33,681 nucleotides of DNA, taken from positions 1 through 33,681 of IMG/VR virus record IMGVR_UViG_3300028569_000100. One strand, 5' to 3'. The notes beneath the pieces are model-generated. The model saw only the letters and a program-made list of their open reading frames with translations. It was not told the origin of the DNA and searched no databases. A program made the position numbers and the translations under genes. Every line of letters begins with the position of its first letter. The first letter of the stretch is position 1. Shown here in pieces: positions 6,013 to 29,300 of the stretch. Source of the DNA: a virus.

Positions 6013-6020
6013 TATTTAGA
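6013..6020 (-). promoter_or_regulatory. T4-type late promoter (leftward)
   Basis: Read on the minus strand from 6020 to 6013 the sequence is TCTAAATA, one mismatch from TATAAATA. It ends 24 bases before the gp4 ATG (5988) and would start transcription near 6007. Its first base is the complement of the A of the opposing ATG at 6020. Confidence 0.55.
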
Positions 6021-6649
6021 TGGCGGCGTTAACTGGGAAAACTGGTATAAACACTTTTCTGGGTGCCATCAAGAACGGTATGGCAATGTCCAATACCTTC
6101 GAAGTTAGATTTAACAAATTGCCAGCTAAGTTAACAAAAGCATTAACAGCTGCTGGGTTTGGGACCAATGTGATTGGTAGTGCTACAGATAATCTCACTT
6201 TGCTATGTGAAGAAGCTTCTCTTCCTGGAATAATGGCATCTACTGGACAAACCACTGGTGTGTTGATGGGAGAAGGGCAAATTAATTATGCACACACTAA
6301 ATCATATCAAGATATAACTTTGGGGTGGACATGTGATACAAATTTACTTCCATTAAGATTTTTAAATGCATGGACTGGTGTAATATTTGATGACGTGACA
6401 AAAGTAGGTGATGGTAGATATTCTCGTAATAGATTGTCATATCCAAACGATTATATGTGTCCAGAATTAATTATAACTAAAGGCGAAAGAAATAAAGATT
6501 CTACTCTAGGCAGAATAGGTGGAATATATACACTATATGATGCGTGGCCATACTCTATACAAAGCACTCCTGTGTCGTATGGTGCATCTGTTTTATTAAA
6601 AGTAACTGCATCATTCTATTATAGAAGATGGATATTTAAAAACAAATAA
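6020..6649 (+). CDS. Tail tube-like (gp19-fold) protein
   Basis: A 209-residue protein with the pattern of the gp19/gp54 tube family: NTFEVRFNKL in the first strand, LTLLCEEASLPGIMAST (the cysteine/Pro-Gly strand also present in T4 gp19 as FQCKATALPAG), KSYQDITLGWTCDTN, and a C-terminal LYDAWPYSIQSTPVSYG plus LLKVTASFYYRRW. It probably forms a ring of the tail tube or the initiating tube layer. The main gp19 tube gene of T4-like phages normally lies beside the sheath gene, outside this window, so this may be a paralogue acting at the tube base, a gp54 analogue. It begins the rightward late operon, 22 bases before gp26. Confidence 0.75.
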   Translation: MAALTGKTGINTFLGAIKNGMAMSNTFEVRFNKLPAKLTKALTAAGFGTNVIGSATDNLTLLCEEASLPGIMASTGQTTGVLMGEGQINYAHTKSYQDITLGWTCDTNLLPLRFLNAWTGVIFDDVTKVGDGRYSRNRLSYPNDYMCPELIITKGERNKDSTLGRIGGIYTLYDAWPYSIQSTPVSYGASVLLKVTASFYYRRWIFKNK

Positions 6650-6670
6650 AATTAATTAAATTGAAAAATT

Positions 6671-7387
6671 ATGGCATTACCAAAACCCACAGTCCCGACT
6701 TACGAATTGGAATTACCTTCTACAGGTAAGACAATTAAATATAGACCGTTTCTAGTAAAAGAAGAAAAACTTCTTCTGATTGCTACTGAATCAGCTGACG
6801 ATAAACAGATAAGAAATGCTATTGTTGAAATTCTAAAATCTTGTATTCTTACACGAGGAATAAAAGTAGAAGATCTTCCTATGTTTGACTTGGAATATAT
6901 TTTCTTACATATTCGATCTAAGTCTGTTGGTGAATTAATTGAGATGCTTTTTACTGCCAAAGATGATAATGAAACTAAACTTCCATATACTCTAAACCTT
7001 GAAGAAGTTACGTGTTTAAAACCAGAAGGACATGATAAAAAAGTTGCTTTTTCTGATGTAAGTGGATTGATCATGAAGTATCCAAGCATGGATCAGTTTA
7101 TAACTTCTCAAATCTTACAAAAAGATCAGAGCACTGAAGAAATATTTGATGAGATTATTAATTGCATTGATCAAATATATGATGGAGATGAAGTATGGGA
7201 AGCAAAAACCACACCTAAGAAAGAAATTAAAGATTACCTAGAAGGATTGACAAGCAAACAGTTTGAAGAAATTCAAAAATTCTATGCTACAATGCCAAAG
7301 GTTTCTCATACATTCTCTCTTATGAATCCAAATACTGGTGTTGCTTCTGAATATACCATTGAGGGATTGACAAATTTTTTCGGATAA
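6671..7387 (+). CDS. gp26: Baseplate hub subunit gp26 (T4_baseplate family)
   Basis: A 238-residue protein beginning with short Pro-rich residues and then ELPSTGKTIKYRPFLVKEEK, a clear signature of the T4 baseplate/gp26 family, followed by MFDLEYIFLHIRSKSVGE. The family acts in hub assembly and resembles tail assembly chaperones of other myophages. The 3' end runs into an A6-T6-type slippery sequence (7372-7381), and the -1 frame then stays open for another 64 codons. A minor 300-residue gp26-gp51 fusion is therefore plausible in addition to the 238-residue form. No clear Shine-Dalgarno precedes ATG 6671. Downstream are the tape-measure-like genes. Confidence 0.85.
   Translation: MALPKPTVPTYELELPSTGKTIKYRPFLVKEEKLLLIATESADDKQIRNAIVEILKSCILTRGIKVEDLPMFDLEYIFLHIRSKSVGELIEMLFTAKDDNETKLPYTLNLEEVTCLKPEGHDKKVAFSDVSGLIMKYPSMDQFITSQILQKDQSTEEIFDEIINCIDQIYDGDEVWEAKTTPKKEIKDYLEGLTSKQFEEIQKFYATMPKVSHTFSLMNPNTGVASEYTIEGLTNFFG
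7372..7381 (+). other. Putative -1 ribosomal frameshift site
   Basis: In the gp26 frame the end reads ACA AAT TTT TTC GGA TAA. Both A-AAT-TTT (7372-7378) and T-TTT-TTC (7375-7381) fit the X-XXY-YYZ heptamer for -1 slippage. The -1 frame opens only at 7363 (TGA at 7360-7362) and gp26 stops at 7387, so the whole overlap is 25 bases and contains the site. Slippage would give a 300-residue fusion ending at 7572. A possible hairpin ATCAGA (7418-7423) / TCTGAT (7434-7439) lies about 40 bases downstream and covers the alternative ATG. Confidence 0.6.
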
Positions 7388-7437
7388 GCCTCTTCCATGA
7401 AACTCTTGGCAATTTTTATCAGACTAATTTTAATCTG

Positions 7438-7572
7438 ATGTATTTTCATAAGTTTTCTCTCACTGAATTGGAAGAGATGCTGCCATGGGAAAGAGAAGTG
7501 TATGTTACTATGTTGATGAATCATTTAGAAGAAGAAAAAAACAATCAACAACAAAAACAGCAATTTAAATGA
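7438..7572 (+). CDS. gp51: gp51-like baseplate hub assembly protein (short frame, probably partly or wholly a frameshift extension of gp26)
   Basis: From ATG 7438 this encodes 44 residues, MYFHKFSLTELEEMLPWERE and on to LMNHLEEEKNNQQQK, a short charged helical protein. Its content and its place after gp26 fit the small gp51 (hub assembly catalyst) of marine T4-like phages. The open frame extends upstream to 7363 with coding-like residues (HETLGNFYQTNFNL just before the Met). ATG 7438 has no Shine-Dalgarno and sits in a small predicted hairpin, so translation by -1 frameshift from gp26 is an attractive alternative to independent start. The stop TGA overlaps the next ATG (ATGA, 7569-7572), which shows that translation through this frame is likely coupled to the large downstream gene. 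Confidence 0.65.
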   Translation: MYFHKFSLTELEEMLPWEREVYVTMLMNHLEEEKNNQQQKQQFK

Positions 7573-10500
7573 ATCCAGATAACTTACCACAACCACCGCA
7601 AGGAGTATTAGACCCAAAACAGCCATGGTGGCCTGGGAAGGTTGGTGAAAAAACTTGGATGGTACTTAAAGCCAAACTTACTGGTGGAGAAGCATTTGGC
7701 ACTGGGTATTCGTCAGCTGTAAATTTAACAAATGCCGACGCTGATACATTAATTGAAAATCTAAAGAAAGATCCTCGTGGTTATCCTCAGATGGATGATG
7801 GCGGCGGTGGTATGCGCCAGATGGAAAATATTATAAAATATCAGGAGTGGTTAAGAGAAGAGTATCTTGAGAAACCATTTAGAAAACAAGTAGATGCCAA
7901 GATAGAAGAAGCTGCTATTGAGTCTCGAATGAAAGAGATAGAGGCAGAAAGAAAAGAGAAAAAACCACCAAAAACAAAAGAAGAAGTTGTTGTTATACTT
8001 GAAGATAAAATAGAAGCATTAGAATCAATTTTAGAAGATGTAAATCCACCTCGCAGTGAGTATCAGGTATCCGATCCGTGGGAAGGTACTTATACAACTG
8101 GTGCACCACCTCCAGCTGCAAAAAAAACTAAGAAAAAAGGAAGACCCAAAGGCAGTAAAAATAAAGCTACAAAGAAAAAGAAAACTTCTCCAGCAGGTGG
8201 CGGCGGTGGAGATCAACCACCATCACCAAAAAAATCTTTTGCGACTAAGATGGGTGGTGGATTAAAAAATGTTGGTAAATCTTTAGGAAAAAGTTTGATA
8301 GATAAACTTGAGGGCGGTGCACCCTTAGGAGAAAACCAAGGTCCATCTGTATTATCTGCTGGTATTTGGATAGGCAAAAAAATTACTACAGCATTTGGAG
8401 ATGCTAAAAAACAACAGCAACGAGCAGCAGAAGCAGAAGAAAATGGTGCTGAAATACCACCAGAAATGAAAGAGAAAGGTTATTTTCTCAAAAAAGCATT
8501 GGGGTATCAATTTGGTGGAAAAGTATTAGATCAAACAGTTGGCGCATTCTTTGAAAATATTCCATCAAAACAATCAAGTAAAAAGGCGGGGTTTGGAGAC
8601 ACGTTTGGTTATGGAGACAAAGATCCCGAGAAGAAAAAACAACAAGCACAACAACAATCTGAAGTAAAAGATTTAGCATCAGGATTTAGAAACGTTACTA
8701 AATCTTTGGGTGGTATTAATCAGTCGATTAATCAACTGACACAGACAATGACTTCTCTAGTTGATCAAACAACACGAGTTGCTGATATACTAGAAGCGAT
8801 ACAAAATAGTATTGCTGGATCAATAGATGTAGAAATTAATTCTGAAAATGATGCCGCTGCTGTGGATACAGCATCTACTGGAGGAGACATCAACATAGGC
8901 GACATCAATCTTGGCGGTGATGATGAAGAAGGCGGACTTAATTTACTTGATATTCTTAGTGGTGCAGATGATATTTTAGATATTGCAAATCTCAGAAAAA
9001 AGAAAACGGGATTAGCAAGACAAAATCCATTATATAAAAAGGCAAGAAAAAAAGGTATGCCAAAAATGCCAAGAGGCAAAGGTATGCCTAAAGGTATGCC
9101 AAAAATGCCAGGTGGAATGGGTAAATTTGGTATGTTAAAAAATATTATGAATGTGGGAAGAACAGCACTTTCCGAAGGCACAGGACCAGTAGCAGGTTCT
9201 GTAAATGCTTTAGTTGGTGAAGCAGGACCTGAATTAATTACTGGAGCATCTCCTGATAAATCTGCAGACGGTGGAGCAGCATCTCCTGATAAATCTGCAG
9301 ACGGTGGAGCAGCATCTCCCAATAAACTCGCAGAAGGTGGAGTAACACAGGGAGCAGGTAGTAACATTTTAGCAACAGGTTTGGGTGCAGGTGCCAGTGA
9401 TTTAATGAAACTAGCGCAACCATTTGCTAATGTAATGGAGATGCCATTTAAAGTAATTGGTGCTCAAATATCTGGTGCTCTTGCTAGTTTAATAAGTGCT
9501 GCTGGACCTTTTAGTGGTGTGCTTGCTAAAATGTTTTCGCCATTACTTGGTGGATTAGCAACTACATTTGGATTAAAGAAAACTGCTTTTGCTGCTGAGT
9601 TAGATTCTGCTGCGATGACAGAAAAGCAAGGCGCTAAAGAGTTGAGTAAATTCTTTGCTAGTTTCTTTAAGTTGTTTGGTATTAACATTGGTGGAGGTGA
9701 TGATACTGAGGATACTGCGGATCCTCCAGGCGGATATGTTCCTATTGATTGGAAAAAAGACCCAGCATTTGGAGCAGCAGTTAATAAAGTAGCACAACAT
9801 TTTAATATTAATGCGGCAGATTTGATGGGATTGATGGCGTCTGAATCTGGATTGAGACCAGATGCAGATAACAAAGGTGGTCATGTTGGTCTAATTCAAT
9901 TTAGTGCTACCTCTGCTATAGCTGCTGGCACCACTCAAGCTGCTTTGAAAAAAATGTCAAGAGCAGAGCAGATGCCATACGTTCAAAAGTATTTGGAGAA
10001 TGCTAAACTTCCTAAGGGTGCTTCTGCTGGTCAATTATACACTGCAGTTTTCCTACCTGCATTTGTTGGAAAACCAGACGATTTTGTTGTAGCAAATAAA
10101 GGTGGCACTGAGCCAGCTGGTTATCCAGAATCTAAAAGTTGGTATAGCAGCAATAAAGGTTTGGATATGAATAATGATGGCAAATTAACCATCAGAGAGT
10201 TGGGCGAAAGGATACAGAAAAAGAAAAAAGAATTTGGTATACCAATGGCACGAGGTGGCGTAGAATCTACAACTTCTAGTTTTACTAATCAAATACGAGG
10301 AGTGTTTGAAATGGATGGACCTGATACAGGTTATCGAGTGCCAGAAGATTTAACGGGTGGGCAACCTGTCATAGGTCATGGTCTTGAGTGGTTAATTAAG
10401 ATGCAGAATAAATTTATCATTCTTCCTGGTATTAATAAAGAGTATAATGTTTATAGAGACCCAGCAAAAGCATTCACTAGATACGAGCAAATAGGAAGTA

Positions 10501-10955
10501 GAGGTGGGGTACAGGTTGATGGTTTAGTTGATGTAATGGGCAAAATAATATACAATGACCAATCACAAAACACTGAAGTTGCTGCAACCTATGGAGAAGG
10601 ATTTCCCAAGAAATCAGCTCCATCTTGGATGGATCAATTAGAAAAAGAGTATCAACGAAATATAGGAAGACCTCTTAATCCAGGAACTTCAAGACCTGGA
10701 AGAGGAGGGGCTGATACCTGGGAAGGACCTGTAAGAGGTGCATCACTACCAGAGGGTCAAATAACACCAATAGGTATTCCGAAAAATACTGGATCTGGCA
10801 CTATTGGCACCACTGTTATTGCTATGGTGCAACCAATGATTCAATACGTTCCTGTCTCTGTGCCTGGACCAACAACAGTTGAATATGTGCCAGCAAATCC
10901 ATTTACTGCTGCTAAAATTGGTAATGAAATGGTTTATTTACAAGGTCTATCCTAA
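7569..10955 (+). CDS. Giant tail/tape-measure-like protein with lytic transglycosylase-like domain and EF-hand loop
   Basis: 1128 residues. In order: an acidic/basic helical N-terminus; an AT-hook-like GRPKGSKNK at 191-199 within a Lys-rich stretch; a block from about 257 (GPSVLSAGIWIGKKI, then DAKKQQQRAAEAEE) shared with the next protein; a Gly/Lys/Met-rich linker (about 490-520); LVGEAGPELI near 547-556, a motif common in tape measure proteins; three 11-residue repeats (560-592); a hydrophobic Ala/Gly helix region (about 600-680); then a transglycosylase-like domain with MASESGLRPDAD and GHVGLIQFSAT (candidate catalytic Glu759). An EF-hand loop follows at 866-877 (D-x-N-x-D-G-x-L-T-x-x-E). 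It probably spans or caps the tail lumen and cuts peptidoglycan at entry. The T4 tape measure gp29 is about half this length, so the tape-measure role is inferred. Confidence 0.75.
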   Translation: MNPDNLPQPPQGVLDPKQPWWPGKVGEKTWMVLKAKLTGGEAFGTGYSSAVNLTNADADTLIENLKKDPRGYPQMDDGGGGMRQMENIIKYQEWLREEYLEKPFRKQVDAKIEEAAIESRMKEIEAERKEKKPPKTKEEVVVILEDKIEALESILEDVNPPRSEYQVSDPWEGTYTTGAPPPAAKKTKKKGRPKGSKNKATKKKKTSPAGGGGGDQPPSPKKSFATKMGGGLKNVGKSLGKSLIDKLEGGAPLGENQGPSVLSAGIWIGKKITTAFGDAKKQQQRAAEAEENGAEIPPEMKEKGYFLKKALGYQFGGKVLDQTVGAFFENIPSKQSSKKAGFGDTFGYGDKDPEKKKQQAQQQSEVKDLASGFRNVTKSLGGINQSINQLTQTMTSLVDQTTRVADILEAIQNSIAGSIDVEINSENDAAAVDTASTGGDINIGDINLGGDDEEGGLNLLDILSGADDILDIANLRKKKTGLARQNPLYKKARKKGMPKMPRGKGMPKGMPKMPGGMGKFGMLKNIMNVGRTALSEGTGPVAGSVNALVGEAGPELITGASPDKSADGGAASPDKSADGGAASPNKLAEGGVTQGAGSNILATGLGAGASDLMKLAQPFANVMEMPFKVIGAQISGALASLISAAGPFSGVLAKMFSPLLGGLATTFGLKKTAFAAELDSAAMTEKQGAKELSKFFASFFKLFGINIGGGDDTEDTADPPGGYVPIDWKKDPAFGAAVNKVAQHFNINAADLMGLMASESGLRPDADNKGGHVGLIQFSATSAIAAGTTQAALKKMSRAEQMPYVQKYLENAKLPKGASAGQLYTAVFLPAFVGKPDDFVVANKGGTEPAGYPESKSWYSSNKGLDMNNDGKLTIRELGERIQKKKKEFGIPMARGGVESTTSSFTNQIRGVFEMDGPDTGYRVPEDLTGGQPVIGHGLEWLIKMQNKFIILPGINKEYNVYRDPAKAFTRYEQIGSRGGVQVDGLVDVMGKIIYNDQSQNTEVAATYGEGFPKKSAPSWMDQLEKEYQRNIGRPLNPGTSRPGRGGADTWEGPVRGASLPEGQITPIGIPKNTGSGTIGTTVIAMVQPMIQYVPVSVPGPTTVEYVPANPFTAAKIGNEMVYLQGLS
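9246..9344 (+). repeat. Three tandem 33-bp in-frame repeats
   Basis: Two identical 33-base units (9246-9278, 9279-9311) and a third diverged unit (9312-9344) encode ASPDKSADGGA twice and ASPNKLAEGGV. They lie between the GEAGPE motif and the hydrophobic region of the large tail protein. The identity of two copies suggests recent slippage or duplication. Confidence 0.9.
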
Positions 10956-10978: not shown

Positions 10979-13972
10979 ATGTCAGCAGGAACATCCACAC
11001 CAGTAGAAGCAGGTCAGGGTCCATCGGTATTGGGGATCGCTGCATCTATTGGTGCGAAAATTCGTGATGCTGCAGAAGATGCTAAGGAGCAAAGAGAAAA
11101 AGCAGCAGAGAAAGGAGAAACGCCTAAGAAAGGATCTTTATTTAAATCTGCTTTAGGTAATCAATTTAATCCAGTTAAATCAAAGAAAGCAAAGGCTAAT
11201 TGGTCTAAACAATTTGATTGGAATAAAACTTCAAAAAGTGATCAACAAGTCAAACCACCGTCTGGAGATGGCGGTGGAGATTCTAAAGGTAAATTAAAAG
11301 AATTTATTGCTGGTGGATTTACTGGGATTCTAAAAGACACTGGGTCAATGGACGCCAAATTAGGTGGCGTTAAATCATTAGCAGGTGCAAATTTATCAGA
11401 AGTTACTAGATCTTCTAGCACACTTGCCGTTATTAAAGATAGTATTGACGCGCAAACCGAATTAAGAAAAAAAGCACTAGAAGAAGCTAAGTTTGCTAGA
11501 GCAGAGAAACAGTTAGAAAAAACAAAAGATGTTGCTGGTGTTTCTAAATCCGAATCAGCAGATAAAGAAGATGAGGAAGGTGATGGAGACGGCGGTGGTG
11601 ATGGAGGTGATGATAAAGGAGGAGGATTTGATTTATTTGGCACTCTTCTAGGTGGACTCGATGCAGTCGAAAACATCATGCAAATTAGGACTTTGCTATC
11701 TGGTGGCAAGGCAGCTGCTAGTGTTGCTAGTGGTGTTAGTGGCGCTGCTGGTGCTGCTGGTGGCGCTGCTCAAACAGCTGGTAGCATAGGTGCTGGTGCA
11801 GGCGCTGCAATTGTTGGCGGTGTTGGTCTTGGCATATCTGCTCTTGGCGAAGGTATGTTTCAACTGGGAAAGGTGGGTGATAAGTCATTAAAAGATAGAA
11901 AAAAATCAATTGATGAAAAGAAAGCAAAAGGAGAGAATACTTTCTTAGATGAAGCACTTCAAGTTGGGCAGACTGGAGTTGGAGAAATAGGAAAAACTCT
12001 TGGCGTTGCTCTGGATGTGGGTGGAGCTCCATTTAGATATGCTATTGAAGCACTACGAAATCCATTCTTGAGTCCAGAGCAAAAGGAAGAGCAAGCAAAT
12101 AATCTTGCTAAGATGGATACACGAATCAGAGAACACTCTCGTGGATGGATGAATCGTATTGACTTCATGAATGTTATTCCAGACGAAAAAGGTGGTCTTG
12201 GTAATGTTTACGGCAGGGAAGGTGCTACAAAAGAGATGGCAGGTAAAATGTCAGAGGGCGGCATAGTACCACTATCAAAAGGTGGGTTGGCACCAGGACT
12301 GTATGACAATCCAACCAAAGGAATGCTATCTCCTGGTCAGAGTGTTATTCCTTTAAATCGTAGTGCTGGCAAAGAGATGCTTGGCAACTCAGGCGACAAA
12401 TCATCTGGTGGCACTCCAGAAGAAACCGCAATGAGTACTGTTGGTGCTATGATTCTTGGTGTGTCTGCTGGCATGTTGGGTAAAACTGATAGTGGCACGG
12501 TAGGAGACCAAGTAAAACAAGATATCAGAAAAGCATCTAAAAAATTTGGAATATCTAATCTCACCTTTACTTCTTCCATTGGAAGAGGACAGTTTGGTGC
12601 AGTTGATACTCAAAAAGATAGTAAAGATTTTATGATGTCTTTATTTGATGGTATGAAAATATCTGGCGGTAGCGGTGGGGGAGGAGGGAAAAATAAAAAG
12701 GGCGATGGAGATCCTCCAGGTGGCGCCCCAGCAGGGTTGAAAGCTGATTTAGAGGCAGATATTGGAAAAAACGCTAGTCAAATGAAAGAAGAAATTATGC
12801 AAAGTGGAGCAGGAGGAATTGTTGATCCGACTCAACAACCATGGTGCGCCGCATATGTTAATTCACAATTAAAAAGAAGTGGAATTATGGGATCTAATTC
12901 TGCTATGGCTGATAGTTATGAAAACTGGGGAGCACCAGTAGATAAAAACAATATTCAATATGGTGATGTATTGGTTGGTGACTACGGTGGTGGAAGTAGA
13001 TCTCATGTAATGTTTGCTGCTGGACCTGTTAAAAACGGAGTAGTAGAAATTATAGGTGGAAACCAAAGTGGCGTAGTTTCTAGGGGATCTATAGCAGTAA
13101 ATAAAATTGATTATGCTAGAAGAGCATCTTCGCAACCACCTGCATTACCAACAAGCACTAAGAAACCAGAACCAACAGCAAAAGCATCACCACCAAAACC
13201 AGCACCAAATCCAGATAACAGACAAGCAGCATTGCCAGAAGCAGAAAGCGTAACTCAAGTTGCTCAATCTGGAATGGTTGGTAAACCAAAACAAGCAGAA
13301 GACGGTAACTCGTTTAATATACTTAATCCATTTAGCTGGGGTAAAGCGATGGACGCTGGAGACAAGGCTAGAAAAGGACAAGGAGGATATAAAAAAAATA
13401 TGACTGGGAATATGTTGAATCGTAATGCAGCACTAGCAGAAGCGATGAAGAGTGCTGGCATGGCACGAGGCGGAACAGGGGGCGGAAAGGAAGATATTAT
13501 GAGACGTAATGCTGCTCAATTGAGATCACGGAGAGTAACAGAACAACGCACAAGATTAGGAGTCCAAAAAGTTGACGGTAGATATGTCAATATGGGGGTT
13601 AGCGACCAAGCAGTTGGTAAAAATCCATGGTGGAAAGGATGGAATAAAAAAAATGATCGTGTAGAAAGACAACAGAAACAAGAAGCATTATCTAAATCAC
13701 TTGCCGAAAGGTTAAATAGAGAGGAAGGATTAAACAAACCAAGAGCAATCCCACCTCCAGCAAGACCGTCTCCAGGAAGATCACCAGGGTCTGGTGGTGG
13801 CACAAGACCAACTTCTACTCAAGCAACATCTTCTGGTGCAATTGCGGTTATGCCATCAGCAGCACCCAAAGCACCGTCAGCATCAGCAGAAGGATCTTTT
13901 GGATCTGCTGTGCCAGTTGGTAAAACTAGCGCAATGGTATTTGCGGATTTCTTATATACAGATTTAGTATAA
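10979..13972 (+). CDS. Large tail protein with NlpC/P60- or CHAP-like peptidase domain
   Basis: 997 residues. The N-terminus (12-64) is paralogous to a block of the preceding protein (GPSVLGIAASIGAKI, DAKEQREKAAE, KSALGNQF). An Ala/Gly-rich hydrophobic stretch follows (about 240-300), then the tape-measure-like EGGIVPLSKGGLAPG and LSPGQSVIPLNRS region (about 425-465). A peptidase-like domain covers about 590-710: PWCAAYVNSQLKRSG (Cys623), GDVLVGD, SHVMFAAG (His676) and IIGGNQSG (Asn695), the order expected of C40/CHAP-type cell-wall hydrolases. The C-terminal third is Pro/Lys-rich and low in complexity. It likely cleaves peptidoglycan cross-links during entry and works with the upstream transglycosylase. 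Shine-Dalgarno AAAGGTAAG lies about 10 bases before ATG. Substrate is not readable from sequence. Confidence 0.75.
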   Translation: MSAGTSTPVEAGQGPSVLGIAASIGAKIRDAAEDAKEQREKAAEKGETPKKGSLFKSALGNQFNPVKSKKAKANWSKQFDWNKTSKSDQQVKPPSGDGGGDSKGKLKEFIAGGFTGILKDTGSMDAKLGGVKSLAGANLSEVTRSSSTLAVIKDSIDAQTELRKKALEEAKFARAEKQLEKTKDVAGVSKSESADKEDEEGDGDGGGDGGDDKGGGFDLFGTLLGGLDAVENIMQIRTLLSGGKAAASVASGVSGAAGAAGGAAQTAGSIGAGAGAAIVGGVGLGISALGEGMFQLGKVGDKSLKDRKKSIDEKKAKGENTFLDEALQVGQTGVGEIGKTLGVALDVGGAPFRYAIEALRNPFLSPEQKEEQANNLAKMDTRIREHSRGWMNRIDFMNVIPDEKGGLGNVYGREGATKEMAGKMSEGGIVPLSKGGLAPGLYDNPTKGMLSPGQSVIPLNRSAGKEMLGNSGDKSSGGTPEETAMSTVGAMILGVSAGMLGKTDSGTVGDQVKQDIRKASKKFGISNLTFTSSIGRGQFGAVDTQKDSKDFMMSLFDGMKISGGSGGGGGKNKKGDGDPPGGAPAGLKADLEADIGKNASQMKEEIMQSGAGGIVDPTQQPWCAAYVNSQLKRSGIMGSNSAMADSYENWGAPVDKNNIQYGDVLVGDYGGGSRSHVMFAAGPVKNGVVEIIGGNQSGVVSRGSIAVNKIDYARRASSQPPALPTSTKKPEPTAKASPPKPAPNPDNRQAALPEAESVTQVAQSGMVGKPKQAEDGNSFNILNPFSWGKAMDAGDKARKGQGGYKKNMTGNMLNRNAALAEAMKSAGMARGGTGGGKEDIMRRNAAQLRSRRVTEQRTRLGVQKVDGRYVNMGVSDQAVGKNPWWKGWNKKNDRVERQQKQEALSKSLAERLNREEGLNKPRAIPPPARPSPGRSPGSGGGTRPTSTQATSSGAIAVMPSAAPKAPSASAEGSFGSAVPVGKTSAMVFADFLYTDLV

Positions 13973-13976
13973 ATCA

Positions 13977-15383
13977 ATGGCACAAAACTCCAGACAATTT
14001 ACAGCAGAATCTATAATTCTGACTACTATAGACAAAAAAAGTTATGATATAACTTTACTTGTGTTGGAATTTTCTATCTATGAAAATATTAATAATCCTT
14101 ACATATTAGGTGAGATTATCATAGAGGATACCACAGCAAATCTTCTTGCTAATTTACCTATACAAGGCAGAGAATTATTGACTTTTAATATTAAAACGGA
14201 AACATTTTCCGAAACAACATATAAGTATTCTTTATCTGTTAGTGGCATTGATGTGCGAGTTATTTCTGGTAGACAGCAAGTATATAAATTAAATCTTATT
14301 AGTTATATCGGAATGGTTAATGAAGGATTGCGTATTGGTGGTGTGTTGAGTGGTAGTAATGATAAAATTGTTGAAGATATTTTAAAAAAATATTTGAAAA
14401 CTGATAAAAAATATGATGGCGAAAAAGCAAGATTTGAGCAGAAATGGTTGCCGTCAATAAAAAGACCATTTGATTTCATTTATCAATTAGCACCAATAAC
14501 AATTTCTTCTAATACACCTGGTGGCACTGGTGGCACTTCACAAGATAAATCTTCTGGTGAATCTACTGGCACTACAAGTTTGGATACCACAAATACAACA
14601 AAACTTTCTGGCACTGCTGGATATGTATTTTTTGAAACACATGATGCTTATGTTTTTAAATCTTTAGATTTGTTATGCTCTTCGGGAGAATCTCCTTATG
14701 GTGGTGATGCTCCAAAATATACTTATGACTACGGAATTGTAAACAGTGAAGGATCTGAAGCAGGCGCTCCTTTAAAAATTCTGGAATATACATTCGTAAA
14801 TGAATTCGATATACTCAAGCAGTTGAGACAAGGTTTGTATTCTACGATGTGTATTTTCTTTGATGTTAATAGTTGCGAATATCAAGAAAACATTTATAAA
14901 ATAGAAGATACATATGCTCAAATGTCTCATCTAGGATCAGCAACTAAAATACCAAAAGGTCAAAAAGATTTAGCGGGTCATGCTACTCGTGTTATGACTC
15001 AGATGGTTAATAATGAATTATTTCATGATGATCCAAAAACGGCAGGAAGTGATGGAGCAAGTTACAAAGATGTCTATAAGTATTCTATTGCTCAATCTAA
15101 TGCAAGATATAAATTAGCTTCTAATCAACAGCTAAATATTGTGGTCCCGCCAAATCTTACAATAAGAGCAGGGGATAAACTAGAATTGTTATTTCCTAAT
15201 ATGACTAGTGATGAAGATAGAAAAACTAATCCTTATGATGAAGAGCATAGTGGTAATTATTTGATAAAAGGTATAGGATATAATTTCATAATGAGAGGAG
15301 CACAACCACTTACTGGCACGACAAATATTAGTTTGATAAGAGATTCTTTTGGAAGAAAAAACACGACTAGCAAGATAAAATAA
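13977..15383 (+). CDS. gp27: Baseplate hub protein, gp27-like
   Basis: 468 residues of beta-rich sequence. Motifs FSIYENINNPYILGEIIIED near the start, GRELLTFNIKTE, VYKLNLISYIGMVNEG and a C-terminal GDKLELLFPNMTS with GNYLIKGIGYNFIMRGA match the order of tube-like hub domains in T4 gp27 and its marine homologues. gp27 forms the trimeric hub on which gp5 and the needle sit. A low-complexity Ser/Thr/Gly insert (about residues 178-210) interrupts the fold. It starts four bases after the previous stop with no Shine-Dalgarno, so re-initiation or coupling is likely. Similarity to T4 gp27 is structural in kind and weak in sequence, so the assignment leans on context before the gp5-like gene. Confidence 0.75.
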   Translation: MAQNSRQFTAESIILTTIDKKSYDITLLVLEFSIYENINNPYILGEIIIEDTTANLLANLPIQGRELLTFNIKTETFSETTYKYSLSVSGIDVRVISGRQQVYKLNLISYIGMVNEGLRIGGVLSGSNDKIVEDILKKYLKTDKKYDGEKARFEQKWLPSIKRPFDFIYQLAPITISSNTPGGTGGTSQDKSSGESTGTTSLDTTNTTKLSGTAGYVFFETHDAYVFKSLDLLCSSGESPYGGDAPKYTYDYGIVNSEGSEAGAPLKILEYTFVNEFDILKQLRQGLYSTMCIFFDVNSCEYQENIYKIEDTYAQMSHLGSATKIPKGQKDLAGHATRVMTQMVNNELFHDDPKTAGSDGASYKDVYKYSIAQSNARYKLASNQQLNIVVPPNLTIRAGDKLELLFPNMTSDEDRKTNPYDEEHSGNYLIKGIGYNFIMRGAQPLTGTTNISLIRDSFGRKNTTSKIK

Positions 15384-20324: not shown

Positions 20325-23300
20325 ATGCCATTAACAAAATTAGAGAATCTGATTTCTAGTAAAACTGGAAGATATCTATATGTTTCACCAGATGATTTTA
20401 ATGCTTCAGATGCTTTAGATAACAGAGGAAATTCTTTAACTAGACCTTTTTTAACTATTCAAAGAGCATTCTTAGAAGTTGCTCGTTTCTCGTATGTTCC
20501 TGGTGCTGAAAATGATAGATTTGATCAATTCAGCATTATGTTGTTTCCTGGTAATCACTACATTGATAATCGTCCAGGAGTAGTAAACGCAGAAGAAATA
20601 GTACCGTTTGCGTTTAATCAAGCTAATGGTGAGTGGGAAGATAATTCAATTGTTGATTTAAAAAATCCAAATAATATTCTTTATAAATTTAACAGTGTTA
20701 ATGGTGGTGCTACTATTCCTAGAGGCACATCACTTATTGGTATGGATCTTCGCAGGACTCGTCTGCATCCTCTTTATGTACCAGATCCAGCAGACAAAGA
20801 TGTTGGTCGCACAACACTTTTTAACGTAACTGGTGGTTGTTACTTTTGGCAGTTTACTATTCTTGATGGAGACACTGCGGCAAGCTCTCCTCTTTATGAC
20901 ACACAAGAGCAAATTGGTAAAGTATATTCGCAACCAAATTCTACTGTCACCACAATTCCTTATTATTCTCACCACAAAATTTGCAATTTTGAATATGCTG
21001 ATAGAGATGATCTAGGATTACTTTATAGAAAGATTGCTCGTGCATTTTCTTTATTTCAACCAACAATTGATGATCCTGGTGAATTTGGGCAGAGACCACA
21101 AGAAAATAGAATCGTTGGTCCTTTACAGGATGCCATTCGCATTGATTCTATTGTAGTAACTGATGTTATTGGCACGAGTGCTCTTGATGTAACAGTAAAA
21201 ACTAAAACTAATCACGGATACTATGTTGGGCAAGCAGTTGCTGTTACTAACGTGCGCTCTACATTGCCTGTTGGAGCAACTGCTCGTATACCTTTAGCAA
21301 ATGATCCTTTAACGGGTGTTTTTGCAGTAAAAGAAATTAGCACAACTGATGCTAAAGAATTTACATATCGTGTAATCGGTAAGAATGCAGCTTCAATTGG
21401 TCTTGGCGATAGAGTTGGACAACCAATCACACCACCAGACCTAGATACAAACGCTGGAGTGCAAGCAGAAATTGATTCTGTTGAATCTGCATCACCATAT
21501 GTTTTTAACGTCTCTATTCGCTCTACGTGGGGTATCTGTGGTATTCACGCTGATGGTAGCAAAGCGACTGGTTTTAAGTCGATGGTTATTGCTCAGTATA
21601 CTGGTGTTTCGCTACAACGAGATGACAGATCATTTATTCGATATGACGAATTCAGTAATACTTGGAATCAAGCACCATTAACTGATGCGTTTGCTACAAC
21701 GACATATCACAATAAAGGTGATGCATTTTGGAAAGATGATTGGAGAAACTTTCACGTTAAAGCATCAAATGACGCTTTCATTCAAAACGTTTCTATCTTT
21801 GCTGTAGGTTTTGCTGATCACTTCTTGATGGAGAGTGGTGGCGATATGTCTATCACCAACTCCAACTCTAACTTTGGTAATACATCTATAAATGCTATAG
21901 GATATAAAGGATTTGCCTTTGCTCAAGACCAGGGTGGATATATTTCTCACATTATTCCGCCTAAAAAAGTTACTACCACTACCAAAAAATTACAATATTA
22001 TACATTCAATCAAGTTAAGTCTAGAAATAATTTTGCTCAAGAATTTGATGGACCTAATGGCACAACATCAATTACTACAAAATTGTATCTTGGACACGAA
22101 ACGGGAATTGATCCTTTAGTTAAACCTGCTACGGTTATTGGTGGATTTAGAATTGGTGCAAAAGCTAGAGACAAAATTTATGTTAAATTAGATACCGCAG
22201 TAGGATATAGTGGATCTATCAGAAGTGCTGAGATTGCACCATCTGGATATAGAAAATGGAATACTGCATTAACAACTTTAAGTCCTAGTATATCAGTTGG
22301 TATAAGCAACCAAGATCAAGATGCTGCTAATTTAATTGATCTTAATCGTGATTTTATCGCAGCAGAAACTTATGGTTATATTACACGTAAGTTTCCGTAT
22401 TTATTGGCTCGCACTAATATCACTATTACAAAGTGTAGACGTGACGTTGGTTATGTTTTAGAAGCAGTTGCTAATGACCTTAGAGTTGGTGGTAATGTAA
22501 ACAGTTTACAAGCAGGTCAATCATATTATGTTGGCACTGAGTTAAACTATATTAATGCAGAAAAAATAGAAACTTTAGACGCATTTAGTTATGCGAGAAG
22601 TCTTGCTGTTGCAGCAATGCGCAATTGGACTTTTTATATTAACAATTGCTCTACTATAATTAATCAATCAACAATAACCGTACCTTCTAGTATTACTACT
22701 ATTGGTATTGTTGAAGGAATGTTGGTCACTGCTACTGTGCCTACTGGGCAGACAAACCCTATTCCTGTAGGGTCTTATGTAAGAGAAATCCTAAGCACAA
22801 CACAATTTATTCTTGGTAATTCAAACGATACTGATAATATAAATGCAACTGCTACTATTTCTGCTAGTGGACTTATATCAGGTGGAGTAAGACTTAACTT
22901 TACTTTATCACAAGGAAAATTTGCTAGTTCTTCTGCTAGAAATTTTGATGCTGGTAACTTAATCACATTAAATAAAGATTTTATTGCAGAAGAGGCACTT
23001 AATCTTGCTAAAATTCAATATCCAACTACTGTTATCCCAGACGAAACAAAGTGTAAACGAGATATCAAACTAATTTTAGGTGGTGTTGTTGAAGATCTTG
23101 GTAATTTTGGAAATGCTGGTATTGTTTCTGCTGCAGAATCATATGTTGCTGCTCCAACTCGTTATCGTGATTCAAAAAACTTAATTCTTGCAAACAGAAG
23201 AGAAATCGTTGATAAAGCAGCTGCTCAACTTGCTATTGATTACCCAGACTTTTACTATGGTGGTAGTGGATTTACTAATGGCGGCGATGCACAAACAAAC

Positions 23301-26300
23301 GCATATTCTCGTTACAAAGATGCTTACAGATTAATTCAGCAAAATAAAGGTAGTATTATTAATACTGCTTATAATGCTTTAGTTGCTAGTGGATTACCCA
23401 ATCCAGCTCCTGCAGATTTAGAAGTTAAGTGTAAAAAGGATATTGGACTCTTTGTTGATGCTGTATCTACAGACCTAACGACTTTAGGAAATTCTTATGC
23501 TATAGATTTTACTCGTCAATATTTTATTGAGGGTAAAGTTAATGGAAAAATTCTGACATTTACTCACACCGCAGGCACACCTTTAATTTTACGAGCAAAT
23601 AGATCTTACAGTGGTGTTGCAACCACAACTACATCTGGTGGATCTAATGCTACTTTTGCAATTACTCGAAACGCTAGTGGTATTGTTTCTTCTGTACTCA
23701 TAACTACTAGTGGATTTAAATATGCTGTTGGAAATACATTAACTATTCCTGGTAGTGGTATTGGTGGCGCAAATATTGCTGATGATATTATTGTTACTGT
23801 AACTGGCGTTGAGCAAGCATGGATCACTGGTGCACTTCAGGGAGAAGAGGCAAAATCAATTTTTGCATTTACTGCAGCAATTGTAGAAATGAAAAAGGCG
23901 ATTAATAATCAATTAGCAATTAAAGATTTAACTATAACAGGAGATCCTGCACCTGGCACTACACAATCTGGTGTAAGCGTATTTGGCACATTCGGAAATA
24001 CTACTAATAATACTGACACACAGTCTTGCTCTAATGTGCAAGCAACTTTGGATACATTATCCAGCATCATTTATGCTAGAATTAATCAAGGTGATCTAGT
24101 AACTGGCACACAACAAAATCCATCACTTCCACCAATTAATTATGGATCGTCACCAGCACAACAAGAAAAATGTAAGCGTGATATTGGAATTATTGTAGAT
24201 GCTATCGCGGAAGATCTTTCTCTTGGTGGAAATTATAATATTATTAATGCAACTAAATCTTATTTTGATAGCACTGGCAATACATTAATTAGTAATGGAT
24301 TAACGGGTGAAATCTCTCAATCAGTTACCGCTTTTTCTACAGCAAAAGAGATTTGTTTCAAAGCAGTAACTAATCAATTAAATGTAAAAGATTTAGAAAT
24401 TCCTGAAGGACCAGCCGAACTTGGTGTTGCTGGTCCAAATATTCCTAACACTAATCCAAACGCTTTGTTGGATGTTAGGAATAAAATTAGTATATTATTT
24501 AATATTCTTATTACTAAACTACAAAATGGGTCTTACGTATATCCTAGTTTACAGTATAATGGTGGTGCTTTATATCTTGCAGGAGAACTTGATATAAGTG
24601 TTTACGCTTATCGTAAAGCAAGAGACCTTGCTATTCTAGCAATTCGTAATTGGATAACTGGAAATGGAGAATCTACTGATCCACTCTATACAAAATTAGT
24701 AAACACAACATTAAACTATCAACGAGATCTTACAATTACCAGTTCTTCTGCTGGTATACCTGTTTGTGCTGATGTTGCTTATAGTATTGCTACAGAATTT
24801 GATATTCTTTTGGGAGCATTGACAAATACACTACCACTACCACCAAAAACGTTTGGTAGTAATGAAAATGTTGAAAGACAAACCCCACAAGTTGATTCGT
24901 CGGTAACTGTTGATAATTCATCTAATCCATGCGCTAGCACAAAAGATGCTATCATCGAAAAAATGCGTGTTGTTGATAGTATTATTCGTAATGGAGTTGA
25001 TGCAGAACCTTTAATTTCTCAACTTGTAAATACTTCTTCTTTTGCTCAAAGAGCCACATTATTCCGTATTGCAGGATCTAATCCACACAATCTAGAAACT
25101 GGGACTCCAGTAAGATTGGTAGCAATTCCTAGAATAGATCCTGTAACAGGAAAACCTGTTGATGTTGATAAGCGTCTTGTAAGACTTCCTAGAGGATTTA
25201 CAAGCAATACCAAATATTTTGTTATTGCTCCTGGAAAAATTACTGCACCATACGATTATTCTTCTGGTGGAGCAACAGCACAATTTAATGATAACCAGGT
25301 ATTCATGCTTGCTACCAGCATAGAAAATGCAACAGCTGGCAACTACATTTACTCTTCAGAAACAAAAGGATTAAGTCCTGATATTCAAATTGAAGTGCAT
25401 CAGTATTTAACTGATGTAAACTATGACCTTCACAGATATACCTGTAAGTTATCTAGTTCGAGAGTATTCGAGACAACAACAAATCATATTTTTGATACTG
25501 GTATTGCGGGTGCACAAGTTCAAAAGGTTTATTTTTATCCATTAGAGGAGAATCTAGTAAATGGCACTGCTACTGGTGCTGCTTTAAATACTTTACCCGC
25601 TAAAACAGCTGGTGGTAGACTTGAAATCTCTAGATATTACTTTGTTGGGCGTCCAGCAACATATACTTCAAACACTCAATTTTCAATTTATTTAACAGCA
25701 GAAGATGCTATCAATAAATTAAATGCAGTACAGTTTAATTTCCCCTTCGCTTTTTCTTTCCAAGTATTTGCAAATAAAAAGAGAAGTCCTTTTGGATATG
25801 ATCCAATTCAATCTGGTTGGTTTGTAAGAACTTTATTGTCTACAAATGAAATTTACAGTAGATTAAATCTTAATGATATTAATCTTGGATCTTCATACGT
25901 AAACAAACCACCAAAAACTCCAGATGCGTTTCTTTACAGATCAAATGATCTTAGAACTTCTGCTGATAAAATCTATCGTTTCCGTTACGTAGTACCTAAT
26001 TATCGTGATGATGTAAGAGATCCTATTAATGGATTTGTTATAAAAGTTAGGACTGACGATACTAGAAAACTTTTACCACAAAGAATTTTACTTAAACCAA
26101 TTGCTGCTAATGATCCTAAAGATGCAACATTTTTTGAAGCAGGAGTACAAAATCCAAAAAGACTTGGGTTGCCTGTTTCCTCTAATCAAGCAGCAATAAC
26201 TTATGATCCTTACAATTCAACAAATAAAAAAAGAATTGCTGGTGTTAATATAGAATCAAATGTATCATTTACTATTCAATCTGCTAGAAAAGTTGGCGAT

Positions 26301-29300
26301 TATTTGGAAATGGTTGTATTCGATCACGGAATAGATGTTGAATCTCTTAAAGCAAAAAGATTTGTAACTATTAAAGTTTCTCAACCACAAGGCGGAAATG
26401 GTGAGTTTATAAAAGATGAAAAAATTAATTGGTATGGTGAATATCAAGGATCTGCAATTGTGCATTCTTGGTTTGGCACAGAGGCAGTTGAAGGTGGACA
26501 ACAAGTATTTAATTATTTGATATTGAAAGACGTAGAAGGCGAAATAGATTTTGATGAAAAAACACAAACCTTCTTTAGACAGATTATAGTTGGGCAAGCA
26601 GATGTAACGGCTGAGGTATTATCGAGACCAAATTTAGGCAAACAAGATAAAAAAGAATATTTGTATGGAGTAGATGCAGCAAATGTATATACTATAACAC
26701 CTGGAGATGTCATTACCGATGATGCCGCTCGTCAATATAGAATAGTAAGTGTTGAAGACGTAGAAGATTTGAGTAATAGTTACTACATCTATAAAATTGA
26801 CCAAATTCAAAGAAGAATTCCTAGACAACAAGATGGCGTATACTATTTGACAGCAGTTCGTGGTGATATTGCACCTCTACCTACAGGATCTGGAGTTGGA
26901 AACAACTTCCAGAAGTTTAAATTTAGTCAACCGATATCTAGATTGTATCCATTATCTTATAAAAATGATCCATTACTGTTTCAATATGATGGATCTGATG
27001 ATTTAGGTGGTAGTCAAAATACAAATATTATAGATCCACCATCTGCTATTTGCTCTGCTGATAATTATATTCATGGATCTGTTGTGATCAATGATGCTAA
27101 AAATTCATTAACTAAAGAAGCAGTTTTAGATTTTATTAAAGATCCTGGATCTGGAAATTATACATTCACAACTAATACAATTGAATCTAGAGCAGGAGCA
27201 GCTTCATCTGGTGCAGAAGAGCGTTTAATTCCTATTGCTGGAGATTCTGCATATCCACTAGAGCAAAAACTTTATGTTGAATTACGTAGACCATCTATTG
27301 CTCGTGCAGGTAATCACACGTTTGAGTATTTGGGATTTGGTCCAGGAAACTATTCAACTGGATTCCCAGCAAGACAAACAGTTATCTTAACTTCAACTCA
27401 AGATTATTATGCTCAAGCTAAAAAGCAAGATGCAGGCATTGTATTCTATACTGGTATTAACTCCAACGGTGAGTTGTATATTGGTAATAAGAAAATTAAT
27501 GCTATTACTGGCGAAGAGACATTTGTCGAAGCAATTATCTTAGATGAAGAAGAAGAAGATCCTGGTGATTTAGGAAGTTTAGTTACTGTATTTGAAGATC
27601 CAGTAACATTTGAGAATATTATTACGCTTAATGCTCCTCCAAATTTAAAAAACTTTTTCAATTCTCCTGTAGAAATTAACGTTGATCCAGAATTTGAAGG
27701 AGTGATGACCGCTTCTTCGTTGAAGGTTGTATCTAATCCAGGACAGCGTTTAGGAGTTTGGCCTGGTGATGATGATCCAAAGCTTGCATCTATTGCAGCT
27801 GGTGATGTCACTATTGATAAAAATAGAGTAAGAGCAGCGATATTCGATATGAATACTCGTGGCACACAACGTTATTCTTTCCGTACATCTATTCTTAATA
27901 ATACACCAAATCAAAATACGTCTGGATCAAAAGCACGACTTAGTGTAACACAAACATTATCTTTTGGGTCTACTTCACCTCTTTCTGGTGATATGATTCT
28001 TAAAGGTGCCGAGACAGGATTTTCTGGATCACTTGGTTGGATGTATGCTAATACTTTTTCTGCTTTTACTTTAAATTCATTATCAGATCCAACATTAATT
28101 GACATTACTACAGTGGAATTATTTTCAAATGTAAATGTAATTAAACTTATCTTCCAAACAGGAAAATCTAATACATCACTTGGAATTACTGTTAATTCGC
28201 AAATTAGAATTATTGGAGCTGTAGGTAGTTTAATTCTTCTGAATGGAGTACATTCTGTTTATAATAATGTTGCAATAGGATATCCATACGATGCAAGTAA
28301 TAATTTTGTTTATTTGATAGCTAGTAGAGCATCTGAAATTACTTTAACAGGAGCTCCTCCATATCTGTTTCCTGTAAGTAGCGGACCACAACCTTCAATT
28401 GAAATTGCGAGATCTAATTCGGAATGGAAAGAAGTTGGTGTAATAGGTGCAGAAGCTTTAAGAACAAAATCTGATAGTTACGGTGATTATAGATTAGGTA
28501 TTAATACTGTTTCCAGAACAAATTCTGATGATTGGAATGTTGGTTATGTAACAACCAAAACAGATCCTAGAGCAACTCTTGATGTAGTTGGAAATGCATT
28601 TATTAGTGGTAAACTACAAAATAATTTTAGTAATTTAGCTGTAAGCACTAATACAAATAAAGCATTTGTTGTTGGCGGTGATAGTTTAAACATAGATGAT
28701 ACTGCTACGTTTAGAATTTCTACAGTTCCTTTAATTTCGCCAGGATTAACTGCAAATTCTACTGGTGGTAAAATTGGTATCAACGTAAATGATGGTCTTT
28801 TAGATAAAAACTTAGTAATTTCTGGTGACGCTAGAATCACTGGAGATTTTACATTCCAAAGCAATATTGCTATCAATGGTGGTGGCATATCTACATCTGC
28901 TACTAGTTTTAATTTTGCAAATGGAATTAATACAAGCATATTAAATTTGTTTGGATATGGACGCAGTGTTAATTTATTTAATAGTGCCACTGCGGCACAG
29001 AGCATTAGTATTGGTAATTCTAGTATTTCACAAAATCTTTTTATCGGTAACTCGGCTATCGCAACTGAATTATTAATTCATACAAATTCTAAAAATGCAA
29101 TCGTTGATATTGCTACAGTTGTTGATACTAATATTTTGCCAACTGATAATGTCTCTTGTGACATTAGAATTGGGGGTGCATTCAATAACACAAATAGTAA
29201 AACACTTATTGGCACTAGAAATACTTCAATTGCTGGAGATCTTGAAATTGGTACTAAATTTGGAGCGGGATCTTCTTTTGCTAGTATTTCTACTCAATGT

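Follow-up and report, generated by a model that had tools for sequence, protein, structure and literature searches.

In phage lambda, the tail assembly chaperones gpG and gpGT are a short protein and its -1 frameshifted long form encoded downstream of the tail tube gene, as is proposed for the locus described here; the lambda heptamer is GGGAAAG, unlike the T_TTT_TTC of our locus. In E. coli dnaX, an internal Shine-Dalgarno (SD) sequence lies about 10 nt upstream of a slippery heptamer that is followed by a stem-loop just downstream. The same parts recur here, the stem-loop in relatives of the locus but not in the locus itself. The dnaX heptamer is A_AAA_AAG with about 50% slippage, and the dnaX frameshift shortens the protein, whereas the frameshift proposed below would lengthen it. 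Among T4-like phages, frameshifting is reportedly conserved in several groups, while the T4 group is said to use two genes.

Vladimirov, Gautam and Davidson (2022, Virology 566:9-15, PMID 34826709) assigned gp26 and gp51 the role of tail assembly chaperones in T4-like phages; the title of their paper emphasises a mechanism other than frameshifting. Poly-T -1 slip sites in the short chaperone (TAC-N) genes of T4-like phages are mentioned in PMC12846349, citing Vladimirov et al. 2022, and some T4-like phages are noted in PMC10885494 to carry instead a separate short gene and a fused long gene. A similar TAC locus is reported for Vandenendeviridae and Andersonviridae, where every genome has a -1 frame that continues beyond the TAC-N stop, along with a conserved poly-T run; these are, however, other phage families and the motif is GTTTTT (PMC12846349). 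Since the T4-like chaperone genes and frameshifting were described in 2022, the idea of a frameshift here is not new but known in kind. Judged against the title of the 2022 paper and the papers citing it, what was found here is an SD-like element, variable lineage-specific hairpins, and loci in which the -1 frame has no start codon.

The DNA analysed (the window) is a 33,681-base IMG/VR contig of a marine T4-like virus that carries a T4-like tail module, and the features of the chaperone locus (6020-10955) lie on its plus strand. A tail tube protein (6020-6649; PF23849, 8.9e-35) is encoded upstream of a gp26 homologue of 238 aa (6671-7387), the short tail assembly chaperone by its matches. The latter has a gp26-type N domain, matching PF12322 (T4_baseplate) at 6.2e-67 and phrog_150 at 1.1e-71. 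The AlphaFold model of gp26 had a pLDDT of 90, and the HK97 tail assembly chaperone 2ob9 took ranks 2 and 4 among PDB structures for this model, at a level that was not significant (E 1.3, TMt 0.40); PDB sequence searches with gp26 and with the extension gave no meaningful match. The next gene (7569-10955) encodes 1128 aa with matches to phrog_13530 and phrog_196 and an SLT domain. Other phages have their tape measure gene in this position, which makes the gene here a candidate by place only; similarity between T4 gp29 and this protein was not found. Directly 3' of it lies a gene for a 997-aa protein (10979-13972) with a weak CHAP domain match (1e-4), and a single open reading frame of 3681 aa (20325-31370) takes up a third of the contig. 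An in-frame A_AAA_AAC at 15356-15362, near the end of the tail gene at 13977-15383, is probably a chance occurrence, and the -1 frame adds about one residue there.

The 3' end of gp26 reads ACA AAT TTT TTC GGA TAA. It contains the slippery heptamer T_TTT_TTC at 7375-7381 (AAT TTT TTC in the 0 frame and TTT TTT CGG in the -1 frame), which has the X_XXY_YYZ form of canonical bacterial -1 sites, and the stop TAA at 7385-7387 follows one codon past the slip site. We compared the window with 80 IMG/VR viral contigs that encode a gp26 relative (49-79% identical). The in-frame T_TTT_TTC was found exactly 10 nt before the gp26 stop in all 80 homologues (81/81 with the window), with the same one-codon spacing to the stop, and the codon before the two Phe codons ends in T in every sequence. 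Since P values that assume independent sequences are overstated, a representative set and a tree are the safer measures. All 35 representatives (<75% nucleotide identity) had the pattern NNT TTT TTC nnn stop together with an open -1 frame. Neither Phe column of the heptamer had any synonymous change on the tree, as compared with a median of 13.5 for the 42 two-fold degenerate columns of gp26, and these two were the only columns of the 42 without change. TTC is the minority codon for Phe (25%), still it is invariant in its column, which ranks first of 234 for codon constraint. Because TTTTTTC occurs in frame only once among the 10,822 codons of the window's genes and is kept in 81/81 sequences, the heptamer is not a chance occurrence. 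The original prediction had pointed to two slippery heptamers at the gp26 end. Both are indeed in the 0 frame, but conservation was found only for T_TTT_TTC. The other, A_AAT_TTT at 7372-7378, is formally slippery; AAATTTT occurs in only 5 of the 81 sequences (the window, L003, L004, L011 and L058), and it was dropped as a working slip site and is probably incidental.

The -1 frame is open from 7363, just past a TGA at 7360-7362, to the TGA at 7570-7572. The limits of 7363-7572 first given for this frame were right, as were the 25-nt overlap with gp26, the 300-residue length of the fusion, and the overlap of the stop with the next start (ATG 7569) as ATGA. The decoded share of the frame would be 7381-7569 (63 codons). 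After a slip at T_TTT_TTC, the extension reads RISLFHETLGNFYQTNFNLMYFHKFSLTELEEMLPWERE... and matches phrog_634, 'baseplate hub assembly catalyst', at 1.5e-23, which bears out its description as coding-like. The -1 frame was open through the gp26 stop in all 81 sequences, with an extension of 55-63 aa (3 sequences run off the contig end), while the +1 frame extended by merely 4-21 aa. The very first codons of the extension are already conserved, with Arg in 33 of 34 representatives. As had been proposed, ATG 7438 is the only plausible start in the window and has no SD; no ATG, GTG or TTG was found in the -1 stretch upstream of it, and the residue it encodes is Met in 27/34 representatives and lies within the conserved domain. 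In 12 loci, the window included, there is no ATG, GTG or TTG from the opening of the -1 frame to extension codon 17. In the same 12 loci, extension codons 2-17 differed at 0.20, 0.21 and 0.52 for codon positions 1, 2 and 3, which is a coding pattern.

Comparison with T4 showed that its two proteins correspond to the two forms. T4 gp26 (208 aa) aligned with the short form only, ending at the FF motif (hhalign E 5.7e-20), while T4 gp51 (249 aa) aligned with the fusion across the junction over gp51 residues 13-243 (hhalign E 3e-11) and matched both phrog_150 and phrog_634. T4 gp26 is thus a homologue of the short form and T4 gp51 a homologue of the whole fusion of the window, and in the long form a gp51-type C domain (phrog_634, T4 gp51) is joined to the gp26-type N domain. 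In T4, genes 26 and 51 are separate and divergently oriented without a frameshift, whereas in the window the two frames overlap. Since T4 gp51 spans both domains, T4 makes the long form from a gene of its own, and this supports that the two frames of the window are one long protein.

Upstream of the heptamer lies a GAGGG element (7361-7365), a putative SD-like stimulator of frameshifting. Its GAGG (7361-7364) is 10 nt from the heptamer, and the spacing of 9-10 nt is within the 9-14 nt reported for -1 SD stimulators (PMC5009743). The GAGG is formed by a Glu codon before the conserved Gly of an EGL motif, and GAG makes up 65/73 Glu codons at this column against a 30% background. Of 234 columns, this one ranks second for codon constraint, with 4 changes on the tree (median 13.5). 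Anti-SD pairing at this position averaged -7.1 kcal/mol, as compared with a mean of -0.8 for the gene as a whole, and 200 synonymous recodings all fell short of -7.1 (best -6.0 kcal/mol). Judged from codon choice, the SD-like element is under synonymous-site selection. A literature search for internal SD sequences in phage tail frameshifts turned up no paper in which all the terms occur together.

On the downstream side, most representatives form structure in the 45 nt directly 3' of the heptamer (mean z -2.18, at this position only), and 60% of all representatives had an empirical p <=0.05 there, as opposed to 0-24% at 18 other offsets. The hairpin occupies at least three registers among relatives, and because of the different registers no consensus structure was found by alifold over 34 sequences. 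In a fixed register, hairpin pairing was 0.74-0.75 versus 0.26-0.58 when slid, a difference for which covariation is not claimed. A 3' stem-loop or pseudoknot, common but not obligatory at canonical -1 sites, is thus present in most relatives. On the other hand, no stimulatory hairpin at the right distance was found in the window; the downstream hairpin is missing there and in L002-L004, the three nearest relatives, with minimum free energies of -2.3 to -4.9 (-4.9 in the window). The small hairpin originally predicted around ATG 7438 is present at about 7417-7440, but it starts 35 nt past the slip site, which is further away than typical stimulators lie. We lean slightly towards the view that T4-like chaperone frameshifting uses a dnaX-like cassette of SD-like element, U6C and lineage-shifted stem-loop, and that the stem-loop was lost in the lineage of the window, where slippage would depend on the SD-like element and the stop codon close by.

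Taken together, the results make it very probable, as far as sequence comparison can tell, that a -1 programmed ribosomal frameshift makes a short (TAC-N) and a long (TAC-NC) chaperone, and that what reads as 'gp51' in the window (open frame 7363-7572) supplies the long form with its C-terminal domain. The conservation, the start-less loci and the homology of T4 gp51 all support the original prediction that gp26 and a 300-residue gp26-gp51 fusion could be the T4-like chaperone pair. We propose that most ribosomes would end gp26 at the TAA and release the 238-aa TAC-N, while a minority would be held, probably by 16S anti-SD pairing with the GAGG, and slip by -1 on T_TTT_TTC with Phe-tRNAs in the P and A sites. 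The slipped ribosomes would read CGG ATA AGC..., bypass the stop, and end at 7572 to give the 300-aa TAC-NC with its gp51-like domain. By analogy with lambda gpG/gpGT, both forms may cover the tape measure, and recruitment of tail tube subunits may fall to the long form, the rarer of the two.

Among other explanations, the one that survives best, though improbable, is that gp51 is a separate gene and the T run incidental, with translation starting at ATG 7438 or by termination-reinitiation once ribosomes have reached the gp26 stop. In 45 of 79 relatives, extension codon 3 is an ATG located 2 nt after the gp26 stop, database records place the gp51 annotation at the post-stop ATG, and an SD before a stop can aid coupled restart (PMC5009743). 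However, this ATG is absent in the window, the GAGG lies 25 nt from any post-stop ATG and so beyond the normal initiation range, and reinitiation leaves the invariant TTT TTC unexplained. Furthermore, in the 12 start-less loci the sequence ahead of codon 17 is conserved at the protein level despite having no start, and T4 gp51 has the gp26 domain in the same chain. Because of the post-stop ATG in those 45 relatives, reinitiation could add some free gp51 there, though not in the window, and in many cyanophage relatives it is a possible additional route. Still less probable is slippage of RNA polymerase on the T run, which would add one base to some transcripts and give the same fusion. The run is a homopolymer, six T long here and seven T long in Melnitz-2, pf16 and phiN3, but it is short, with its invariant C, beside the runs of nine A or T in reviewed cases (PMC5009743), and the ribosome is implicated both by the SD-like element, whose spacing is that of -1 sites, and by the structure 3' of the slip site in relatives. 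An assembly or sequencing error in one continuous gp26-gp51 gene, for which breaks at homopolymers are typical, is refuted because 80 independent contigs show the identical break, as do complete genomes of isolates from many laboratories.

The slip signal is also kept in distant phages. T_TTT_TTC at -10 was found in 12 isolate or single-cell phages (S-CAM1, DLP_6, MED4-213, LPCS28, phiWae14, D491s, nt-1, S-SSM7, P-SSM4, P-TIM40, AG-345-P14 and P-SSM2), among which LPCS28 and nt-1 are Straboviridae and AG-345-P14 is a single-cell virus. Four further phages carry variants, with the heptamer at -7 in Milchi and a run of seven T in phiN3, Melnitz-2 and pf16. The expectation that the heptamer and the open -1 frame would be conserved across marine T4-like phages thus held for all close and most distant relatives. 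The heptamer is not shared by the entire family, since five Ackermannviridae-type phages (SeKF_19, Madison, Ds16CZ, YC and K452) retain the -1 frame at a junction that lacks a canonical heptamer. In Salmonella phage SeKF_19 (L084, 3286-3469) and at the same place in Klebsiella phage Madison (L091), the conserved -1 extension reads FHLIFEIDLLSYF..., the junction GAG ATT TTC ATT TAA lacks a canonical heptamer, and no start codon lies close to the stop. The two frames would be joined there by a non-standard slip or by some other mechanism. In Ds16CZ, YC and K452 (L101, L093 and L094), the gp26 gene ends in a TAATG stop/start overlap, which makes coupling possible. With their relatives SeKF_19 and Madison, these phages may offer a natural series for a switch between frameshifting and reinitiation. 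In Stenotrophomonas phage IME-SM1 (L088, 1492-2334), the annotated gp26 overruns its usual end in another frame (GLEDFSADASGRQ...), possibly as a result of a homopolymer sequencing error at the slip site.

In the cyanophage records, including that of S-CAM1 (L082, 3215-3398), the gp51 frame is unannotated in many and a free gene in others, and the GenBank records of S-CAM1 and ACG-2014d have no feature at this frame. Because public records separate or omit gp51, one tail assembly protein would be wrongly described throughout a marine virus group of very high abundance. How the ratio of short to long form is set could be measured by mutating the SD-like element and the hairpins. The findings support the original claim that gp51 does not stand alone as a gene in marine T4-like phages. 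We suggest that one protein pair has two coding solutions, a frameshift in most of the T4-like lineages sampled and separate genes in T4.
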